The translations under genes and the position numbers were made by a program. The notes below the pieces were generated by a model. It had not been told where the DNA came from. It was given only the letters and a program-made list of their open reading frames with translations, and ran no database searches. A stretch of DNA of 64,000 nucleotides. It comes from Rhodopseudomonas palustris HaA2 (GTDB taxonomy: Bacteria > Pseudomonadota > Alphaproteobacteria > Rhizobiales > Xanthobacteraceae). The stretch covers positions 4,588,001 to 4,652,000 of the forward strand of contig NC_007778.1 in assembly GCF_000013365.1 (NCBI RefSeq). The letters are read 5' to 3'. Shown piece by piece: positions 5,515 through 14,936 of this stretch (positions within the stretch are counted from its first letter, which is position 1; each line of letters starts with the position of its first letter).

Positions 5515-8500
5515 CTAGGCGGATTCTTTCGGCAGTTGCGGGTGCATCGGGACCTCGTGGGGCGCCCTGACCGGATCGTCGGACCGATCGCCGGCGAACA
5601 GCCGCTGCACCACGACGAAGAACACCGGAACCATCAGCAGCGCCAGCACCACCACCGCGATCATGCCGCCCATCACGCTGGTGCCGAGCGCCTGCTGGCT
5701 CTTGGCGCCGGCGCCCGTTGCAATCGCCATCGGTAGCACGCCGCTGCAGAAGGCGAGGCCGGTCATCACGATCGGGCGGAACCGCAGGTGGCAGGCTTCC
5801 AGCGTCGCTTCGCGCAGCGACTTGCCTTCCTTGCGCAGATCCTTGGCGAATTCGACGATCAGAATCGCGTCCTTGGCCGCGAGCCCGATGATCGTGATCA
5901 GGCCGACCGTGAAGTACACGTCGTTCGGCAGCGAGCGCGTCGTCGCCGCGACGACCGCCCCGATGATTCCGAGCGGCACCGTGAGCAGCACGGCGACCGG
6001 AATCGTCCAGCTCTCGTAAAGCGCGGCGAGCACGAGGAACACCACCAGCGCCGACAGCGCCAGCAGGAACGGCGCCTGCGAGCCCGACAGCTTCTCCTGC
6101 AGCGACTGGCCGGTCCAGTCGTAACCGAAACCGCGGGGCAATTGCGCGGCGAGCCGCTCCATCTCGGCGATCGCATCGCCCGAGGTGTAGCCGGCACGGG
6201 CCTGACCGCTCACGCGGATCGCCGGATAGTAGTTGAAGCCGACCACCTGGGTCGGCCCCTTCGACCACTCGATTGTCGCGAAGGACGACAGCGGCACGAG
6301 CTGGCCGCGGCTGTTCTTCACCGAATAGGTCAGGATGTCGTCGGCCTTCATCCGGTCGGGAATGTCGGCCTGCACGATCACGCGCTGCATCCGCCCGCGG
6401 TTCGGGAAGTCGTTGACATAGGCCGAGCCGAGATTGGTCGAGATCGTATTGTTGATGTCCTGGAAGGTGACGCCGAAGGCGCCGGCCTTCTCGCGGTCGA
6501 TCATCAGATTGATGACCGGCGCCGGCGGGAGGCCTTCGACATAGACGTTTTCGAGGATCGGGCTGGCATTGGCCGCCGCCACCAGTTGCTGACTGGCCTG
6601 GATCAACGCGGGGTAGCCCTTCTGGCCGCGGTCCTGCAGGCGGAAGCTGAACCCCGAGGAGTTGCCGAGATTGTCGATCGGCGGCGGCTGCTGCGCCGCG
6701 ATGCGCGCATCGCGCACCGACCCGAGCGCCTTGTTGGCGTCGTCGACGATCGCTGCCGCGGAGGATTTGCCGTCGCGCTCGGACCAGTCCTTGAGCGTGA
6801 CGAAGGCCTGCGCCGCGTTCATGCCCTGGCCGAGGAAGCTGAAGCCGGTGAGGAAGGTGACGTTGTCGACGCCGTCGCGCTTCAGCAGATAATCCTCGAC
6901 CTTCTTGATCACCTCGAAGGTCCGGTTGTAGGACGAATCCGACGGCGTCTGCAGGTCGACGGTGATGAAGCCCTGGTCGTCGATCGGCAGGAAGCCGCCC
7001 GGCATCCTGACCAGTCCCCAGCCGAGCACGCCGAGCAGCACGGCGTAGAGAATCATCAGCCGGCCCGTTCGCCCGAGATTCCACCGCACGATCCGCGAAT
7101 AGCGCTCGCGGGTGCCGTCGAGAATGCGGTTGAACCGGCCGAAGAAGCCGCGTTCGGCATGGGCGTGGCCCTTGACGACCGGCTTCAGCAGCGTGGCGCA
7201 CAGCGCCGGCGTCAGCGTCAACGCCATCAGCGCCGAGAACGCGATCGCCGACACCATGGTCACCGAGAACTGCCGATAGATGATGCCGACCGAGCCGGGG
7301 AAGAACGCCATCGGCACGAACACCGCGATCAGCACCAGCGTGATGCCGATGATGGCGCTGGTGATCTGCGTCATCGCCTTGCGGGTGGCCTCCTTCGGCG
7401 GCAGCCCCTCCTCGGCCATGATGCGTTCGACGTTTTCGACCACGACGATGGCGTCGTCGACCAGGATGCCGATCGCCAGCACCATGCCGAACATCGTCAG
7501 CATGTTGATCGAATAGCCGAACAGCAGCAGCGACACGCAGGTGCCGAGCAGCGCCACCGGCACCACGATGGTCGGAATGATGGTGTAGCGGATGTTCTGC
7601 AGGAACAGGAACATCACCACGAACACCAGCGCCACCGCCTCGAGCAGCGTGTGCACCACTTTGGTGATCGAGGCCTCGACCACCGGCGTGATGTTGTACG
7701 GGATCTGGTAGCTGATGTTCGCCGGGAAGAAGCGCGACAGCTCCTTCATCTTGGCTTCGACCGCGCTCGCGGTCGCCAGCGCGTTGCCGGTCGGCGACAT
7801 CAGCACCGAGAGGCCGGCGGTGGGCTTGCCGTTGAGGCGGGTGTTGAACTGGTAGCTGAAGCCGCCGATCTCGATCCGCGCGACGTCGCGCAGCCGAACG
7901 GTCGAACCATCGGGATTGGCGCGCAGCACCACCGCGCCGAACTCGTCGGCGGAGGAGAGCTGCCCCTTCACCAGCACCAGCACCGAGGTCTTCTGCCCCT
8001 TGGCGCTCGGCTCGGCGCCGACGGCGCCGGACGCGACCTGGGCGTTCTGCGCCTCGATCGCCTTGGTGACCTCGTCGGCGGTGAGATTGTAGCCGACCAG
8101 CTTGTCGGGATCGATCCAGATCCGCAGCGCGCGTTCGGTCGAATACAGCGTGGCGCGGCCGACGCCGGGAATGCGGCGGATTTCGCCGAGCACGTTGCGG
8201 ATCATGAAGTCGCCGAGGCCGACCTCGTCGAGCGAGCCGTCGGTCGAACTCAGCGTGATGATCTGCAGCACCGCGCTGGAGGCTTCCTCGACCAGGATGC
8301 CCTGCTGCAAAACGGCGCGCGGCAGCCGCGCCTCAATACGTTTGATCCGGTTCTGCACGTTGACCGACGCCATTTCGGTGTCGGTGCCGGGCTCGAAATT
8401 GGCGATGATTTCGACCTGACCGAGCGAGTCGGAGGTCGATTCGAAATTGAGAATGCCGTTGGCGCCGTTGAGCTCTTCCTCGATCAGCCGGGTGACGCTG

Positions 8501-8676
8501 TTGTACAAATTCTCCGGCGAGGCGCCGGGATATTGCGTCGACACCGAGATCGACGGCGGCGCGATGATCGGATATTGCGCGATCGGCAGAAACGGAATCG
8601 AGATCGCGCCGAGAAGGCAGATGAACAGCGCGACGACCCAGGCGAAAATCGGCCTGTCGATAAAAAATGCGGGCAT
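5515..8676 (-). CDS. RND multidrug efflux transporter, HAE1 family (AcrB/MexB-like)
   Basis: The protein has 1053 residues, the normal length for inner-membrane HAE1 proton antiporters. It begins MPAFFIDRPIFAWVVAL, has the duplicated layout of 12 membrane helices with two large periplasmic loops, and carries the proton-relay pair Asp407-Asp408 in GILVDDAIVVVENVERI. Family motifs such as FEPGTDTEMASVNVQNRI are intact. It would pump drugs, detergents or aromatic compounds from the periplasm or membrane through a TolC-type channel. The gene starts 6 bp after the adaptor gene and is followed by a stem-loop. No outer-membrane factor or regulator is adjacent, so it must borrow a TolC from elsewhere. 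Confidence 0.95.
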   Translation of the reverse strand: MPAFFIDRPIFAWVVALFICLLGAISIPFLPIAQYPIIAPPSISVSTQYPGASPENLYNSVTRLIEEELNGANGILNFESTSDSLGQVEIIANFEPGTDTEMASVNVQNRIKRIEARLPRAVLQQGILVEEASSAVLQIITLSSTDGSLDEVGLGDFMIRNVLGEIRRIPGVGRATLYSTERALRIWIDPDKLVGYNLTADEVTKAIEAQNAQVASGAVGAEPSAKGQKTSVLVLVKGQLSSADEFGAVVLRANPDGSTVRLRDVARIEIGGFSYQFNTRLNGKPTAGLSVLMSPTGNALATASAVEAKMKELSRFFPANISYQIPYNITPVVEASITKVVHTLLEAVALVFVVMFLFLQNIRYTIIPTIVVPVALLGTCVSLLLFGYSINMLTMFGMVLAIGILVDDAIVVVENVERIMAEEGLPPKEATRKAMTQITSAIIGITLVLIAVFVPMAFFPGSVGIIYRQFSVTMVSAIAFSALMALTLTPALCATLLKPVVKGHAHAERGFFGRFNRILDGTRERYSRIVRWNLGRTGRLMILYAVLLGVLGWGLVRMPGGFLPIDDQGFITVDLQTPSDSSYNRTFEVIKKVEDYLLKRDGVDNVTFLTGFSFLGQGMNAAQAFVTLKDWSERDGKSSAAAIVDDANKALGSVRDARIAAQQPPPIDNLGNSSGFSFRLQDRGQKGYPALIQASQQLVAAANASPILENVYVEGLPPAPVINLMIDREKAGAFGVTFQDINNTISTNLGSAYVNDFPNRGRMQRVIVQADIPDRMKADDILTYSVKNSRGQLVPLSSFATIEWSKGPTQVVGFNYYPAIRVSGQARAGYTSGDAIAEMERLAAQLPRGFGYDWTGQSLQEKLSGSQAPFLLALSALVVFLVLAALYESWTIPVAVLLTVPLGIIGAVVAATTRSLPNDVYFTVGLITIIGLAAKDAILIVEFAKDLRKEGKSLREATLEACHLRFRPIVMTGLAFCSGVLPMAIATGAGAKSQQALGTSVMGGMIAVVVLALLMVPVFFVVVQRLFAGDRSDDPVRAPHEVPMHPQLPKESA

Positions 8677-8682
8677 CGGCGC

Positions 8683-9882
8683 TTACTGCAGCTTCTGCGT
8701 GCTGCCCGTCGTCGGAGGGGCTGCGGTCGCGGACTTGGTTTCCTCGAGGCTCACCGGAACGACGGCGTCTCCAGCCGCGAATTTCTGGAAGCCCTCGACC
8801 ACGACGCGCGCGCCCGGCTTGAGGCCGTCGAGCACCAGCCACTGGCCGTCCTGCTGCGAGCCGACGCGGACCGGCTGCACCGCCACGCGATTGTCGTCCT
8901 TGACCACGAAGACCTCGCTGCCGCCGCCTCCGTTGCGCTGGACCGCCTCCTCCGGCACCGAGATCGCGTCGGCGTCGAAGCCCTGCTCGATCCGCACGCG
9001 GACATACATGCCGGGCAGCAATTCGCGGTTCGGATTGTCGAATTCGGCGCGCAGCGTCACCTGGCCGGTATAGGCGTCGACCTTCGACTCCGAGAACAGC
9101 AGCTTGCCGGGCAACGGGTAGACCGTGCCGTCGTCCAGCACCAGCCGGGCGCGCGCCGCGTCCGGCGCGATCTGGTCGAGTTCGCCGGATTCGAAAGCGC
9201 GACGCAGCCGGACCATTTCGGCGACCGGTTGGGTGAAGTCGGCATAGACGTGATCGAGCTGCTGAATCGTGGCGAGGCTGTTGGAGTCGTTCTGGACCAC
9301 CAGAGCGCCCTCGCTCACCAGCGCAGCGCCGATCCTGCCGCTGATCGGCGCCCGGACGGTGGCATATTCGAGGTTCAGCTTGGCGCGCGAGACTTCGGCC
9401 TCCCGGGCGGAGACCTCCGCATCGGCCTGCCGCGAATTACTGGCCGCGACTTCGTTCTGCGCCTTGGAGGCGGCCTGCTCCCTGGTCAGCATCGCCACAC
9501 GATTGGCCTGCTGCAACGCTTGCTCGCGCGCCGCATGCGCCTTGGCGAGCGCGGCCTCGGCGGCCTTCAATTCGACCTCGAACGGCCGCGGGTCGATGAC
9601 GTAGAGCGGATCGCCCGCCTTGACCTCGCTGCCCTGCTTGAACGGGCGGTGGACCACGATGCCGGAGACCCTGGGCCGCACGTCGGCGACGCGGATCGGC
9701 GCGATGCGGCCGGGCAGTTCGCGAACGATCGCACGGGCGTGAGGCTTCACCGTGATGATGCCGACTTCCGGCTTCTCGGGCGTCGCCGCATTCGCTGTCT
9801 TCGGGTCGTTACAGCCGGCCAACCCCGGCGCGAGACACGCAAGCGTCACCGCCGTCAAGGCAAACCTGATGGATCCCCGCAT
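8683..9882 (-). CDS. RND periplasmic adaptor lipoprotein (AcrA/MexA-like)
   Basis: The protein has 399 residues with a lipoprotein signal peptide ending at the lipobox LAGC (about residues 21-24), followed by the usual adaptor domains: a lipoyl-type half (VVHRPFKQGSEVKAGDPLYVID), an alpha-helical hairpin rich in A, E, K and Q (about residues 105-175), the second lipoyl half (YATVRAPISGRIGAALVSEG) and the beta-barrel region (LPGMYVRVRIEQG). It links the inner-membrane pump to an outer-membrane channel. It is the first gene of a two-gene operon with the transporter. The promoter should lie in 9883-10207. Confidence 0.95.
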   Translation of the reverse strand: MRGSIRFALTAVTLACLAPGLAGCNDPKTANAATPEKPEVGIITVKPHARAIVRELPGRIAPIRVADVRPRVSGIVVHRPFKQGSEVKAGDPLYVIDPRPFEVELKAAEAALAKAHAAREQALQQANRVAMLTREQAASKAQNEVAASNSRQADAEVSAREAEVSRAKLNLEYATVRAPISGRIGAALVSEGALVVQNDSNSLATIQQLDHVYADFTQPVAEMVRLRRAFESGELDQIAPDAARARLVLDDGTVYPLPGKLLFSESKVDAYTGQVTLRAEFDNPNRELLPGMYVRVRIEQGFDADAISVPEEAVQRNGGGGSEVFVVKDDNRVAVQPVRVGSQQDGQWLVLDGLKPGARVVVEGFQKFAAGDAVVPVSLEETKSATAAPPTTGSTQKLQ

Positions 9883-10207: not shown

Positions 10208-11734
10208 CTACCTGCCATAGACGAAAACGGGATCATCGAGGTCGATCTTCGGCAACTCGTCCTTCTCCGTCCAATAGTCCTGGCTGTGCTGCCACTCCGG
10301 CTTGGCGCCACGTTTCGGCAGCAGGCTCATGCCGCGCATCAGGTAACCCGGGTTGAAGTTCTCCGGGTCCATCCAGGGCAGCAGTTCCATCCCGGCGTCT
10401 TCCGGGCGCAGTGCCGGCACGACACTGCGGCAATTGTGCTGCTTCATATGACGCAGCAGACGGCAGACGAAATCCGCCACCAGATCGGCGCGCAGCGTCC
10501 AGCTCGCGCGGAAATAACCGAATACCCAAACCATGTTCGGCACACCGGTGAACATCATACCGCGATAGGTCACGGTATCGGCGAAATCGAGCGGCCTGCC
10601 GTCGATGCTGAAGGCGATGTCGCCGAGAACATTGAGGTTGAAGCCGGTCGCGGTGACGACGATGTCGGCCGCGACCGTTTCGCCGGACTTCAGCGCGATC
10701 CCCGTCTCGGTGAATCGCACGATCTCGTCGGTGACCACCGACGCCTTGCCCGACGCAATGCCTTTGAACAGATCGCCGTCCGGCACGAAGGCGATGCGCT
10801 GACGCCACGGCCGGTAGCTCGGCATGAAATGCGGATCGAGATCGTAGTCCGGACCGAGGTGGGCGCGAACGCCGGCCAGCAGTTCCTGCTTCACCACCTC
10901 CGGCTCGGTCATCGAGCGGCGGGTGAAGGTGGCCTGATCGAATAGGATCTTGCGCCGGACGATCTCGTGGATCCAGTCCTCGGAGATGCCGAGCTCGCGC
11001 AACGTGTCGGCGATCTCGATCTTGTTGCGCCCGGGGATGAAATAGGTCGGCGAGCGCTGCAGCACGGTGACGTGCTCGCAGTTCGGCGCAATCGCCGGCA
11101 CCAGCGTCGCGGCGGTCGCGCCGGAGCCGATGACAACGACCTTCTTGCCGGTCGTATCGAGATCGTCCGGCCAGGTCTGCGGATGGACGATGCGGCCCTT
11201 GAATGCCGCCATGCCCTCCCATTCGGGGGTGTAACCTTCGCTGTGGCGGTAATAGCCCTGGCACATCCAGAGGAAATCCGCGGTGACGCGGACCGCCTCG
11301 CCGGTGTCGGTTCGCTCCGCCAGAATGCTCCAGCGCTTGTCCGCGCTCGACCAGTCCGCCGACACGATGCGGTGGCGATAGTGAATGTGCCGGTCGAGGT
11401 CGTTATCGTCGATCACCTCGCCGAGATAGTCGCGGATTTCGGCCGCGGTCGCGATCGGCTTTCCGGTCCACGGCTTGAAGCGATAGCCGAACGTGTAGAG
11501 ATCACTGTCGGAGCGGATGCCGGGATAGCGATGGGTCAGCCAGGTCCCGCCGAAGCTGTCCTGCGTCTCGAGCACCGCGAAACTGGTGCCGGGACATTGC
11601 GTCGTCAGGTGATAGGCGCCGCCGATTCCGGAAATTCCGGCGCCGACGATCAGCACGTCGACATGGTCGGGGCAGGATCGGGCCGTGGCGGAGGGGTCGA
11701 CGCGCGGCGCGTCGGCTTCGGCAAGCTGGGTCAT
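10208..11734 (-). CDS. Flavin-containing monooxygenase, Baeyer-Villiger type (EthA-like)
   Basis: The protein has 508 residues from the ATG at 11734, chosen over a longer frame because GAGGAAAC precedes it. An FAD-binding motif GAGISGIGGAYHL lies near residue 30, FGGTWLTHRYPGIRSDSDLY follows, and a second nucleotide-binding motif GSGATAATLVPAI (NADPH) lies near residue 195. This pattern is typical of EthA-like Baeyer-Villiger monooxygenases, which insert oxygen into ketones or oxidise thioamides. The substrate cannot be told. It appears to be a single gene on the minus strand; the following intergenic region separates it from the efflux operon. Confidence 0.85.
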   Translation of the reverse strand: MTQLAEADAPRVDPSATARSCPDHVDVLIVGAGISGIGGAYHLTTQCPGTSFAVLETQDSFGGTWLTHRYPGIRSDSDLYTFGYRFKPWTGKPIATAAEIRDYLGEVIDDNDLDRHIHYRHRIVSADWSSADKRWSILAERTDTGEAVRVTADFLWMCQGYYRHSEGYTPEWEGMAAFKGRIVHPQTWPDDLDTTGKKVVVIGSGATAATLVPAIAPNCEHVTVLQRSPTYFIPGRNKIEIADTLRELGISEDWIHEIVRRKILFDQATFTRRSMTEPEVVKQELLAGVRAHLGPDYDLDPHFMPSYRPWRQRIAFVPDGDLFKGIASGKASVVTDEIVRFTETGIALKSGETVAADIVVTATGFNLNVLGDIAFSIDGRPLDFADTVTYRGMMFTGVPNMVWVFGYFRASWTLRADLVADFVCRLLRHMKQHNCRSVVPALRPEDAGMELLPWMDPENFNPGYLMRGMSLLPKRGAKPEWQHSQDYWTEKDELPKIDLDDPVFVYGR

Positions 11735-11911
11735 GTTTCCTCGACTTTTTTTCTGTCGTTGGAAACCAGATTGACGCCTGCGCGGTGTTTTGCCCAGCAT
11801 TTTCTTGGCCGCCCGCAGCGGCGGTTGTGAACGACACCGGACGCTGCCGATCGTCGCGCCGCCGGGCGCGCCTCGCCGACCGGGCGGCGAGGCACCGGGA
11901 CGCCGAAACGC

Positions 11912-11941
11912 AAAACGCCGCGGGCATTGCTGCCCGCGGCG
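11912..11941 (-). terminator. Rho-independent terminator of the puc-repeat operon
   Basis: An 11-bp perfect stem (CGCCGCGGGCA / TGCCCGCGGCG, loop TTGC) lies 27 bases downstream of the repeat-protein stop on the minus strand. On that strand it is followed by TTTTG, which fits rho-independent termination. Confidence 0.75.
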
Positions 11942-11968
11942 CTTCGTGGCCGATCGGCCGCGGCCGGC

Positions 11969-12259
11969 TCAGATGTTGAGCAGCAGCGGATAGCCAGAGA
12001 ACGACTTGTACTCGCCTTCCTGCTTCAGCAGCAGCGGCGTGCCGGAGAACGACTGGTATTCGCCCTCCTGCTTCAGCAGCAGCGGCGTGCCGGAGAAGCT
12101 CTGATACTCGCCCTTCTGTTCGAGGATCAGCGGCGTGCCGGAGAAGCTCTTGTACTCGCCTTCCTGCTTCAGCAGCAGCGGCGTGCCGGAATAGCTTTCG
12201 TACTCGCCCTTCTGCTCGAGAATCAGCGGAGTGCCGGAGTGTCCTTTGTATTCGCTCAT
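11969..12259 (-). CDS. Protein built only of six 16-residue repeats (GEYxSFSGTPLLLxQ), unknown function
   Basis: The protein has 96 residues, exactly six units of 16, and nothing else. The consensus is [KE]-G-E-Y-x-S-F-S-G-T-P-L-[LI]-L-x-Q. Units ending LILEQ and LLLKQ occur in mixed order, and units four and five differ by only one residue, which points to recent tandem duplication. There is no signal peptide. The ATG at 12259 is preceded by AAGGA at about 10 bases; a TTG at 12265 is an alternative. The regular Y/F-S-G-T-P-LLL rhythm suggests a beta-solenoid or amyloid-like stack, but this is inference. It lies 12 bases after a gene that carries the same repeat and is the last gene before a terminator, probably in one transcript with pucBAC. 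I know of no assigned function. Confidence 0.7.
   Translation of the reverse strand: MSEYKGHSGTPLILEQKGEYESYSGTPLLLKQEGEYKSFSGTPLILEQKGEYQSFSGTPLLLKQEGEYQSFSGTPLLLKQEGEYKSFSGYPLLLNI
11969..12259 (-). repeat. 48-bp coding tandem repeat, six units
   Basis: Six direct 48-bp units fill the whole reading frame apart from the stop codon. Sequence similarity between units is high at the DNA level (for example the run CAGCAGCAGCGGCGTGCCGG recurs), so copy number may vary between strains through slippage or recombination. Confidence 0.85.
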
Positions 12260-12271
12260 GGTCAAATTCCT

Positions 12272-12934
12272 TTACTTGGAGAGCACTGGCAGGCCCAGCC
12301 AGGAGGAGAAGATGGTCGGATTGTTGAGCAGCAGCGGCTCGCCCGAATAGGATTTGTACGGACCGCTGTCGTCCAGCAACAGAGGAGTCCCCGAGAAGGA
12401 CTTGTAGGGACCGCTGCTGTCGAGCAGCAGCGGCGTTCCGGAAAACGACTGGTATGGGCCCTTGCTGCTGATCACGAGCGGCGTTCCGGAGAACGTCTTG
12501 TCGCTGTCGACGAGCAGCCAGTCGCCGGAATAGGATTTGTACTTGCCCGACGTGTCGAGCAGCGTCTTGGCATGGATCATGTTGGAGAACGGCGTCGCTT
12601 CGCTCATCTCGACGGCGGACGACGACGACGACTGCAAGCTGATCTTGTTCGGGCCGTAGCTGTCGAGGATCGTCGTCGCCTTGGCGGCGAAGCCGAACTC
12701 GGCCTGGACCGCGACCACGACGGCGCCCTTCTTGACGTAGTCGGCATAGGTCCGGGCGTCGCCGCGCGACACGTAAGCCCGGCCCATCGCCGCGATGATG
12801 TCGTCCACCGAGCTCGACTTGCCGGCCTGAGTGCCGGTGACGACGGCATATTTGTAGTTGTTCTTCTTCAGGTCGGCTTCCAACGCAGCGAGCTTGCTGC
12901 TGGAATCGTACAACCGGGTGACAATCTGGGTCAT
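12272..12934 (-). CDS. YflT-like stress domain fused to 16-residue SFSGTPLLL repeats
   Basis: The protein has 220 residues. Residues 1-96 resemble the YflT/general-stress-protein-17M fold (MTQIVTRLYDSSSKLAALEA at the start, then SRGDARTYADYVKKGAVVVA and KATTILDSYGP). A serine-rich linker (about 100-110) leads to residues 130-205, which hold five imperfect copies of the repeat found in the next gene (GPYQSFSGTPLLLDSS, GPYKSFSGTPLLLDDS and others). The tail SSWLGLPVLSK looks like a degenerate unit. GGAG stands five bases before the ATG. It begins 43 bases after pucC and 12 bases before the pure-repeat gene, so it is likely cotranscribed with pucBAC. The function is unknown; a scaffold or membrane-organising role in light harvesting is a guess from position. 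Confidence 0.65.
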   Translation of the reverse strand: MTQIVTRLYDSSSKLAALEADLKKNNYKYAVVTGTQAGKSSSVDDIIAAMGRAYVSRGDARTYADYVKKGAVVVAVQAEFGFAAKATTILDSYGPNKISLQSSSSSAVEMSEATPFSNMIHAKTLLDTSGKYKSYSGDWLLVDSDKTFSGTPLVISSKGPYQSFSGTPLLLDSSGPYKSFSGTPLLLDDSGPYKSYSGEPLLLNNPTIFSSWLGLPVLSK

Positions 12935-12977
12935 AGTTACTCCGTTTCAGTCTCAGGGCGGAGAGAGCCGCCCTGCA

Positions 12978-14399
12978 TCAGTTCAGTTGTCCCTGCATCA
13001 ACAATGTGTCCCGTCGCTTGATCAGCGGGACCATCGTCGCCAGCGTCGCCAGCAACAGCAGCAGTTCGAGGCCGTAGACGGCGTTGTAACCCGCGGCCGG
13101 GCCGAACTGCGGAGCGAACGCCGTCACGAGATCCCGGATGATGCCGCCGAGCGCAATCGCCACGCCCGCCGCGGAGGCCTGCACCGCGCCCCAGGCGCCG
13201 AGCGCGAGGCCGGCCTGGTCCTTCGGCGCGGCGTTCATCGTCGCGGTCAGCGTGCCGTGGCCGAACAGGCCGGCGCCGAAGCCGATCAGCGCGGTACCGC
13301 AGCCGAATGTCAGCACCGACGCGGCGCCCTGCAGTTCGGCGGCGAAGATCACCGCGAGAAAGGCCGGAATGCCGACCAGCGAGCCGAAGCTCGCCATCCG
13401 GAACGGATCTGCGCCGCGGCTCAGCACGCGCGAGGCGAGGCCGAAGCCGAGCAGACCGCCGACCGCGAGCGCCGCGGTGAGCTTGGTGGTGTCGCCGACC
13501 GACATCGACAGGATCTGGCCGCCATAGGGTTCGAGCAGCACGTCCGCCATGCTGAACGCCATGGTGCCGAAGCCGACCGCGATCAGCCGGCGCATCGCGT
13601 CCTTGCCCTGGATGAAGACGTCCCAGGATTCGCGGAAGCTCGCGGAGGGCGCGCCGGGATGCGCGGTCGCCTGCGTCGCGCCGGAGGTGCGCCGCGCTTC
13701 CTGCTTCCAGACGGCGATGCCGTTGAGAACGATGGTGACGACGGCCGAGCCCTGGATCACCTGGATCAGCCGGCCGGGCGAAAAATCAGCGAGCAGCATG
13801 CCGAACACGATCGCCGCGGCGATCATGCCGAACATCAGCATGGTGTACATCAGGCCGACGACCTTCGGCCGCGATTCCGGCGAGGCGAGGTCGGTGGCGA
13901 GCGCAAGGCCCACGGTCTGGGTGGTGTGAACGCCGGCGCCGATCAGCAGGAACGCCAGCGCCGCGCCGAATTGTCCGATCCACACCGGGGCGTTGCCCGC
14001 ATCGCCGCTGCCGGACAGCACCAGGAGCGCGAACGGCAGGATCGCCAGGCCGCCAAATTGCACCAGCGTGCCCTTATAGAGGAAGGGAACGCGCCGCCAG
14101 CCGAGCACGGATTTGTGGACGTCGGATTTGAAACCGATCAGCGCGCGGAACGGCGCGAACAGCAAAGGCAGCGAGACCATCACGCCGACGATCGAGGCCG
14201 GCACGTTGAGTTCGACGATCATCACGCGGTTCAAAGTGCCGACCAGCAGCACCAGCGACATCCCGACCGCCACCTGAAACAGCGACAGGCGCAGCAACCG
14301 CGACAGCGGCAGATCCGGCGTCGCCGCATCCGCGAACGGCAGAAAGCGAGACCCCATAGAGGCCCAGACTCTCATCATTTTTTGGCTGACTGCGTTCAT
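12978..14399 (-). CDS. pucC: PucC, light-harvesting 2 assembly protein (BCD-family MFS)
   Basis: The protein has 473 residues with 12 predicted membrane helices and belongs to the bacteriochlorophyll delivery (BCD) branch of the major facilitator superfamily, with PucC and LhaA. Typical text is LLVGTLNRVMIVELNVPASI, LPLLFAPFRALIGFKSDVHK, LGWRRVPFLYKGTLVQFGG and DVLLEPYGGQILSMSVGDTT. PucC is needed for normal LH2 accumulation and is thought to shepherd pigment or LH subunits in the inner membrane. It follows pucA by 189 bases that contain stem-loops, the classic arrangement that lowers pucC expression relative to pucBA. The two repeat-protein genes follow it. Confidence 0.93.
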   Translation of the reverse strand: MNAVSQKMMRVWASMGSRFLPFADAATPDLPLSRLLRLSLFQVAVGMSLVLLVGTLNRVMIVELNVPASIVGVMVSLPLLFAPFRALIGFKSDVHKSVLGWRRVPFLYKGTLVQFGGLAILPFALLVLSGSGDAGNAPVWIGQFGAALAFLLIGAGVHTTQTVGLALATDLASPESRPKVVGLMYTMLMFGMIAAAIVFGMLLADFSPGRLIQVIQGSAVVTIVLNGIAVWKQEARRTSGATQATAHPGAPSASFRESWDVFIQGKDAMRRLIAVGFGTMAFSMADVLLEPYGGQILSMSVGDTTKLTAALAVGGLLGFGLASRVLSRGADPFRMASFGSLVGIPAFLAVIFAAELQGAASVLTFGCGTALIGFGAGLFGHGTLTATMNAAPKDQAGLALGAWGAVQASAAGVAIALGGIIRDLVTAFAPQFGPAAGYNAVYGLELLLLLATLATMVPLIKRRDTLLMQGQLN

Positions 14400-14535
14400 C
14401 GTCCAGCAAATCCAGCTTGCAAGGGGCCGGCGACGACGGTCACCGATAACCGAATGAACAGCACCACTTTGCGGCCAGAGATGATCTGCGGCAGATCAAA
14501 CCGCCACCGCGCCTCGACCAAGGTACAAAGCAAGC

Positions 14536-14585
14536 GACCGGGACCCATGGATCCCGGTCCAGCCACAACAGCTTCAACGAAGCTG
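14536..14585 (-). other. Stem-loops between pucA and pucC
   Basis: Two inverted repeats lie just after the pucA stop: CAGCTTC/GAAGCTG (14569-14585, loop AAC) and GACCGGGA/TCCCGGTC (14536-14559, with CCATGG in the loop). Hairpins here in other purple bacteria stabilise the short pucBA message and attenuate read-through into pucC; the same role is inferred. Confidence 0.6.
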
Positions 14586-14588
14586 CAA

Positions 14589-14768
14589 TCAGCCGATGGT
14601 GACCGAGCTCTCGATCGCCGCGGTCTTCCCGTTCCAGTACTTGGGGAACCAGGTGGTGTTCGACAGCACGGCGTAGTGAACGAGGATGGCGATCACGGTG
14701 ACGCTGCCCAGCAGAAGCGGCAGGCCAACGGTCGGCTTGACCACAGTCCAAATGCGACCTTGGTTCAT
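14589..14768 (-). CDS. pucA: LH2 alpha polypeptide
   Basis: The frame codes 59 residues starting [20 protein letters not shown], followed by a single membrane helix and ending [12 protein letters not shown]. It has the B850 ligand His31 (ILVHYAVLS) and the pair Tyr44-Trp45 in [10 protein letters not shown], which in LH2 hydrogen-bond the B850 acetyl groups and set the 850-nm band; low-light LH3/LH4 types change these residues. Met1, whose modified N terminus ligates B800, is followed by the usual NQGRIW. GGAGTATC precedes the ATG. It forms the antenna ring with PucB in the photosynthetic membrane. The frame is too short for usual ORF cut-offs. Confidence 0.95.
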
Positions 14769-14780
14769 TTTCGATACTCC

Positions 14781-14936
14781 TTATTTCAGCCAGGGCGAGT
14801 AAACGTACGCCAGGAAGTGCGCCACGATCGCGATCGCGCCGAAAATGCGCGTGCCGTCGATGACGTGCTTGTGGAGCTCTTCCGATTCCGCGATCGTCAG
14901 GCCAGTCGGCCAGACCTTGTTCGGATCGTCTGCCAT
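14781..14936 (-). CDS. pucB: LH2 beta polypeptide
   Basis: The frame codes 51 residues: an acidic N terminus ([14 protein letters not shown]), the conserved [16 protein letters not shown], one membrane helix and the end SPWLK. His40 (VAHFLAY) is the B850 ligand and His22 corresponds to the His near B800 in Rhodoblastus acidophilus LH2. A strong GAGGAGG site stands seven bases before the ATG. It is the first gene of the puc operon, 12 bases ahead of pucA. Expression is probably governed by the paired TGT-N12-ACA boxes about 230-275 bases upstream and by the neighbouring phytochrome system. Confidence 0.95.

Follow-up and report, generated by a model that had tools for sequence, protein, structure and literature searches.

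A protein family encoded in puc loci of Alphaproteobacteria shares the 16-residue period of the LH2-gamma subunit: a candidate belt of light-harvesting complex 2

Background

The stretch of DNA analysed here, called the window below, comprises 64,000 nucleotides of the Rhodopseudomonas (Rps.) palustris HaA2 genome (contig NC_007778.1, positions 4,588,001 to 4,652,000). It contains a puc operon, which encodes light-harvesting complex 2 (LH2), and the last two genes of this operon code for proteins built on a common 16-residue repeat. One of these proteins is the gamma subunit of LH2, which is already known. The other, called FUS here, belongs to a family that is apparently undescribed and that occurs in puc loci across the class. 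On balance we think it probable, though with considerable room for doubt, that FUS is an ancestral LH2 belt acting in assembly next to PucC, and that gamma derives from its tail, which became a separate protein in Rhodopseudomonas. Here we describe the locus, the evidence for the family and the explanations that compete with this one.

Findings

All genes of the operon lie on the minus strand. It begins with pucB (14781..14936), for the LH2 beta polypeptide of 51 amino acids (aa), whose homologues at other loci match LH2 beta chains in the PDB. Sequence comparison identifies the next gene, pucA (14589..14768), as coding for the LH2 alpha polypeptide of 59 aa; it is 75% identical over 48 residues to the LH2 alpha sequence of Rhodoblastus (Rbl.) acidophilus that served as the query (match at G000:C1:4602625-4602768). 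Then comes pucC (12978..14399), whose sequence marks its product of 473 aa as an LH2 assembly factor and a member of the major facilitator superfamily. The FUS gene (12272..12934) follows after a gap of 43 bases, and 12 bases further on the LH2-gamma gene (11969..12259) starts with an ATG at 12259 and runs for 96 codons and a stop. A first-pass annotation, made from the sequence alone, had already noticed two genes with a common 16-residue repeat downstream of pucB-pucA-pucC on the same strand, separated by these same gaps, and the coordinates bear it out, as does the 16-residue period found in each protein (z 21.2 and 10.8). In its six reading frames the window contains the motif SG.PL[LIV] ten times, always inside the FUS and gamma genes; 20 mononucleotide shuffles of the window contained 0 to 3.

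The six-repeat protein can be identified. Its 96 residues are six repeats, as the first-pass annotation had counted, with a serine preceding glycine in every one. Searched against the PDB with phmmer, it matches chain 7zcu_S with an E value of 3.5e-49 over residues 2-96; the entries matched (7ZCU, 7ZDI, 7ZE3 and 7ZE8) hold the gamma chain of Rps. palustris LH2. The gamma of another genome of the genus (G004, locus L020) is letter for letter identical to 95 residues of 7zcu_S. Judged by sequence, then, the protein of the window is LH2-gamma. The earlier remark that neither repeat protein had a described function was wrong for this one, and stands for FUS in the literature searched.

In the portion of PMC9618040 available to us, the gamma gene of Rps. 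palustris is RPA1495, and the LH2 of this species is a nonamer. Gamma has there the form of an extended ribbon that runs on the outer face of the ring, toward the cytoplasm, and surrounds six of the nine alpha-beta pairs with one 16-residue repeat for each. The serine of every repeat ligates one extra (B800) bacteriochlorophyll; a homologue of the window protein is thus known bound to the LH2 ring, with six extra bacteriochlorophylls. The reason for the partial cover is called unclear in the same text, which reports gamma by BLASTp from Rhodopseudomonas only and an LH2 structure of Rbl. acidophilus without it (PMC9618040). Our matches to the FUS profile A1 in the family and order samples likewise include no free gamma outside Rhodopseudomonas. 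The first-pass annotation had imagined the repeats as a solenoid or filament that organises LH2. The second half of this idea comes close to gamma, which wraps the ring and adds pigment; the solenoid or filament is wrong, since the ribbon that gamma forms is extended. Several gamma units of R. rhenobacensis, R. faecalis and strain JSC-3b (L056, L057 and L058) have about 13 residues rather than 16 (FSGTPLLLDSNK), and therefore ring spacing may differ there.

FUS has 220 aa and consists of an N-terminal domain (residues 1-97) and a ribbon tail (112-220). The tail contains seven units, which start at residues 112, 128, 141, 157, 173, 189 and 205 and keep one 16-residue register apart from a single 3-residue deletion. 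Five gamma-type units with the Ser-Gly ligand motif stand between two units of the type found in the wider family described below, so that the earlier estimate of about five copies holds for the gamma-type units and misses the two different ones at the ends. In the PDB search the FUS repeats match gamma with an E value of 2.6e-28. Every one of the 17 FUS sequences aligned has the serine of all five gamma-type units (S136, S149, S165, S181 and S197). Comparison of eight FUS pairs gave dN/dS values of 0.08-0.20 for the tail, indicating purifying selection, with 0.16-0.36 for the N-domain and 0.11-1.38 for the linker.

When modelled with AlphaFold2, residues 1-97 of FUS fold (predicted local distance difference test, pLDDT, 62-86 by block) and the tail is left unstructured (28-36). 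With a relative of FUS as the query, most of the N-domain came out at about 90 or more, and 78 of 192 residues reached 90. An unstructured tail is as expected for a ribbon that requires a partner, though low confidence alone is no proof of one. Foldseek comparison of both predicted models with the PDB gave no match at E 0.001; the weak matches were to nucleoside diphosphate kinases, GlnK/PII-type proteins and one chain of alternative complex III. A search of plasmids with one member of the FUS family gave no match.

The N-domain had been called a YflT-like stress domain. The FUS profile does reach a canonical YflT protein (in G054, E 4.5e-6, along query residues 33-117 only), and that protein passes the Pfam cut-off for YflT with 28.6 against 26.2 bits. 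The window's FUS itself gave no match to the YflT model (PF11181) at E 1, none of 20 single family members matched it at E 0.1, and scans of single proteins with Pfam and NCBIfam yielded nothing useful. The glycine-rich hairpin of YflT can be read in three canonical proteins (L075, L092 and L232) and is absent from FUS. Because of the missing hairpin, and because the Pfam model was not reached by the members scanned, the name is right only as a statement of distant relation. According to Pfam, YflT is a domain of stress proteins induced by heat, and one could imagine from this that FUS is a stress or quality-control protein whose N-domain senses or signals stress and whose ribbon does no more than bring it to LH2, for repair, quenching or degradation. 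The profile link to the G054 protein speaks for such a role; the failure of 20 out of 20 members to match PF11181, the loss of the hairpin and a gene order that points toward LH2 synthesis make it improbable.

Within Rhodopseudomonas the arrangement of the window is general. All 16 genomes of the genus give a match, and in 15 of them a full-length FUS gene with an adjoining gamma gene is found in the order pucB-pucA-pucC-FUS-gamma; the remaining locus (G012) is cut by contig ends. At these 15 loci pucC and FUS are separated by 18-43 bases in 12 cases and overlap by four bases (ATGA) in three, and the ATG of gamma follows FUS after 9-16 bases.

The genome of the window has a second puc locus (L008). 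It encodes a FUS copy that is 97% identical, a gamma of four repeats (8566-8772) and a protein of 145 aa (8073-8510) made of nine units at exact 16-residue spacing, eight of them gamma-type and the last of the wider type. Relatives of the nine-unit protein are also present in G010, G012 and G020. The counterpart locus of G010 has a gamma with six repeats, and two units were therefore probably lost at L008 by recombination of near-identical repeats. Since Rps. palustris LH2 is nonameric, nine units could in principle close the ring, a matter of counting that is no evidence of binding.

Six FUS relatives lie away from puc genes (L064, L065, L066, L067, L074 and L129, in Rhodopseudomonas genomes and G064); the one in the window's own genome is L129:6566-7078. 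Motifs resembling PLSxxLGLPVL occur in them, and SG.PL motifs stand singly (0 to 2 per protein), with no tandem gamma-type array. The first-pass annotation had named repeat genes lying mostly away from puc loci as an outcome that would speak against an LH2 connection, and these six paralogues do not provide it. In L066 and L067 the FUS-like gene is near a gene that looks, by eye, like one of the alpha-amylase family.

A different paralogue does lie beside light-harvesting genes. In two of the 16 genomes of the genus, G006 and G014 (L063 and L060), a diverged FUS of 38% identity adjoins pucBA, LuxR and bacteriophytochrome genes. This order fits the LH4 locus of PMC6879726, where, in the part of that paper accessible to us, the expression of a hypothetical gene next to pucBAd, rpa3011, goes up along with that of pucBAd under low light in 14 or more of 17 strains. 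The gene order suggests that rpa3011 is the 38%-identity paralogue.

The main competing explanation for FUS enters here. FUS could be a sub-stoichiometric or easily lost subunit of LH2 which replaces gamma in some complexes, its seven units lying along nine positions, and contributes pigment or charge at the surface, for instance when light is low. Its unit and ligand serine are the same as those of gamma, the LH4-like paralogue stands directly beside pucBA, and rpa3011, if it is indeed that paralogue, is induced in low light (PMC6879726, as above). However, wild-type LH2 from high and low light was analysed by gel and mass spectrometry in PMC9618040, and the portion of that study available to us reports gamma and does not mention FUS. 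The LH4-type paralogue was also seen in just the two genomes named, and G004, whose gamma equals the solved chain, showed none. We consider this explanation rather unlikely, while taking it seriously.

Relatives of FUS are not confined to Rhodopseudomonas. In the family sample G150, from outside the genus, has the order pucB-pucA-pucC-FUS (L068). For the order sample, profile A1 was run on 397 genomes at E 1e-5 and matched 25. Apart from the window's own genome, 15 of these matches are strong, with E values of 4.1e-11 or below, and 9 are weak and extend along part of the N-domain only. In all 15 strong genomes the stretch fetched includes pucC, whole or in part. An LH2 alpha query on an order draw of equal size, bearing the same handles where genomes are listed, found 24 positive genomes from 13 genera, and all 16 FUS-positive genomes were among them. 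A wider profile, A3, added a puc-linked FUS in four of the remaining eight (G319, G354, G390 and G548). The first-pass annotation had proposed looking for the repeat beside pucC in other purple bacteria; the FUS family is at the puc locus in 20 of the 24 LH2-positive genomes and 12 of the 13 genera. With A1, the only profile used for this comparison, there was no strong match among the 373 LH2-negative genomes of the order.

For the class sample, A3 was run on 385 genomes at E 1e-6 and matched 19, namely the window's own, 10 strong and 8 weak; each of the 10 strong ones has pucBA in the fetched stretch. PucC was found at E 1e-100 in 27 genomes of this sample. In 11 genomes pucBA and pucC occupy one stretch, at a distance of about 3 kb in G738, and FUS is present in 10 of the 11, the exception being G800. 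PucC relatives 61-69% identical to that of the window share one stretch with pucBA in 10 other genomes, and 10 PucC matches examined show no pucBA alongside. In G771 pucBA and FUS are on a different contig from the PucC match. The family of G685 (84 genomes) gave six matches, of which G1090 is a puc-linked FUS in the order pucB-pucA-pucC-FUS with a 4-base ATGA overlap between pucC and FUS. Among the matches listed the place of FUS varies: some loci have it behind pucC, some between pucA and pucC, and some in divergent orientation to pucBA. Among the matches listed, too, no genome had an identical copy of the Rbl. acidophilus LH2 alpha, and the PucA or PucB of three other genomes were identical to no PDB chain. 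Thus the first-pass expectation of an undescribed LH2-linked protein holds for FUS, and more strongly than it was put, with a family in puc loci across the class. The open-access passages searched yielded gamma and the unnamed rpa3011 but no account of FUS or the family.

Some matches were not accepted as FUS. The weak profile matches, which cover the model only in part, were rejected; they came from 34 of the 54 matching genomes for the family, from 9 of 25 for the order and from 8 of 19 for the class. L075, L092 and L232 proved on reading to be canonical YflT proteins; L228-L231 are YflT-like fusions with no ribbon tail by eye. The proteins read for the five other matches in the family of G685 are YflT-like with no ribbon tail by eye. 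As a separate observation, L134 and L137 have two pucBA pairs, one on each side of the FUS gene.

The distribution just described bears on another idea. The FUS and gamma genes are adjacent in Rhodopseudomonas and have the pigment-ligand motif in common, which would suit a carrier that works in the cytoplasm and hands bacteriochlorophyll over to gamma without taking any part at the ring. Outside Rhodopseudomonas, however, the FUS family lacks the ligand motif, and no gamma gene was noticed beside it in the annotated stretches. We regard a carrier of this kind as very improbable.

What the distant members share with gamma can be seen in their tails. We took 26 tails from outside Rhodopseudomonas (15 from the order sample, 10 from the class sample, and L068; L201-L204 were left out), each from residue 96 to the end, and compared identity at given lags with that in shuffled sequences. 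At lag 16 it is 0.178 against 0.082 in the shuffles (z 18.8); lags 32 and 48 give z 17.7 and 7.5, and the next strongest is lag 8 with z 4.9. The first 95 residues of the same members have no signal at lags 15-17, 32 or 48. A subset of 17 tails from different genera gives z 15.4 at both lags 16 and 32, and in 22 of the 26 tails lag 16 ranks within the top three when lags 8-39 are compared. The tail of G1090 has a different unit sequence and keeps the period of 16 (z 10.0).

A model of the wider-family unit, built from 117 units and started from a consensus made by eye, is roughly NPAPLSSLLGLPLLSK. The gamma unit falls into the same register, with G, P, L and L at positions 10, 12, 13 and 14, and the wider-family units have a strongly kept serine of their own at position 6 (81%). 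From these comparisons a common geometry of gamma and the wider-family tails is well supported. For a common ancestry of the tails the support comes chiefly from the FUS of Rhodopseudomonas, a chimera that carries both kinds of unit.

A few features around the operon should also be mentioned. An intrinsic terminator (stem 11945-11912; the folded stretch 11900-11960 has -42 kcal/mol, z -4.76) marks the end of the operon. The first-pass annotation took it for the first good terminator, and it is real, but another strong hairpin precedes it, on the minus strand between pucA and pucC (14536..14559, a 10-pair stem, -31.8 kcal/mol, z -4.03), possibly a partial terminator or an mRNA stabiliser. Because of this second hairpin read-through from pucBA is not free, yet pucC, FUS and gamma are closely spaced; the hairpin may reduce read-through into these three genes, or it may stabilise the pucBA mRNA. 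Upstream of pucBA there are divergent genes for a bacteriophytochrome and a LuxR-type regulator (both named by eye). Past the gamma terminator, at 10208-11800, comes a gene that by eye is flavin monooxygenase-like; relatives of it are found in 12 of 18 annotated gamma-bearing loci, two of which come from one genome.

The hypothesis

PucC directs LH2 assembly and is specific but not essential in Rhodobacter (Rba.) sphaeroides, according to the portion of PMC4949548 available to us. From gene order, period and homology we infer that FUS binds the LH2 ring and acts at the same stage. Its N-domain would stay in the cytoplasm and its tail would lie along the ring in the manner of gamma, one 16-residue unit per alpha-beta pair. 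FUS may bind nascent or partial rings beside PucC and hold or guide the subunits, in Rhodopseudomonas probably with bacteriochlorophyll on its five Ser-Gly units. Once the ring is complete, FUS would be released or replaced. Gamma would then be a stand-alone copy of the FUS tail that arose in Rhodopseudomonas and is kept in the finished complex as an extra antenna.

Several observations weigh against this. Rps. palustris LH2, as purified in PMC9618040, has one extra band of about 10 kDa, which is gamma, and FUS goes unmentioned in the part of that source at our disposal; this argues against FUS as a stoichiometric subunit. According to the same part, Rps. palustris LH2 was assembled in Rba. 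sphaeroides without the gamma gene, so that this component is not indispensable in that host (PMC9618040). Four LH2-positive genomes of one genus (G325, G367, G431 and G480) gave only partial N-domain matches and no FUS, and G800 has puc genes with no FUS found at the thresholds used. For the tails of L087, L134, L138 and L139, lag 16 is not one of the three best lags. The support from the register comparison is modest, since 51 of 2000 column-permuted gammas did as well. At position 9, where gamma has its ligand serine, 77% of the wider-family units have Leu or Phe, and SG.PL[LIV] occurs in none of the 26 wider-family proteins. For these two reasons pigment binding in the wider family is not predicted by gamma's ligand; as far as sequence goes, what this family shares with gamma is only the period and the G-x-P-L-L register. 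The contact of FUS with LH2 is itself a prediction.

A broader suggestion can be made, more tentatively, since we would rate its chances at a little below even. FUS and gamma may belong to a class-wide family of LH2 belts in which the 16-residue unit is matched to the alpha-beta spacing and the tail serves as a molecular tape. The sequence of the unit would have changed several times (PLSSLLGLPLL, KSFSGTPLL, YKPVIPMPLL) while its length stayed at 16. Gamma would be a freed tail turned into a pigment-bearing antenna, and the nine-unit form could close the nonamer.

If FUS is a belt of assembly, as we favour, then gamma has a likely origin in a puc-locus family that has the same period across Alphaproteobacteria. 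The family also suggests that many LH2 complexes meet a ribbon protein which is not seen in purified rings, and it makes FUS a concrete candidate to act alongside PucC in the assembly of the LH2 ring.

Comparison with known systems

PucE is the gamma subunit of Rba. capsulatus LH2; it is LH2-associated and is encoded after pucC. The cluster of that species is named pucBACDE in the accessible part of PMC9231093.

Among systems already described, FUS is nearest to LH2-gamma (RPA1495), whose 16-residue unit and ligand serine are present in its tail. Unlike gamma, which is a ribbon of about 10 kDa and nothing else, FUS has a folded N-domain and 220 aa, seven units instead of six with end units of a different type, and relatives beyond Rhodopseudomonas. 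The YflT or general stress protein 17M domain (PF11181) resembles the N-domain in that the FUS profile finds such proteins, and the start and the last third of the domain correspond by eye; it differs in the glycine-rich, hydrophobic hairpin in the middle of the domain, which FUS lacks, FUS falling below the Pfam model. The assembly factors PucC and LhaA, of the bacteriochlorophyll delivery family, are linked to FUS by the presence of pucC in its operon, but they are membrane proteins of twelve helices and, as far as we have seen, bear no sequence relation to it.

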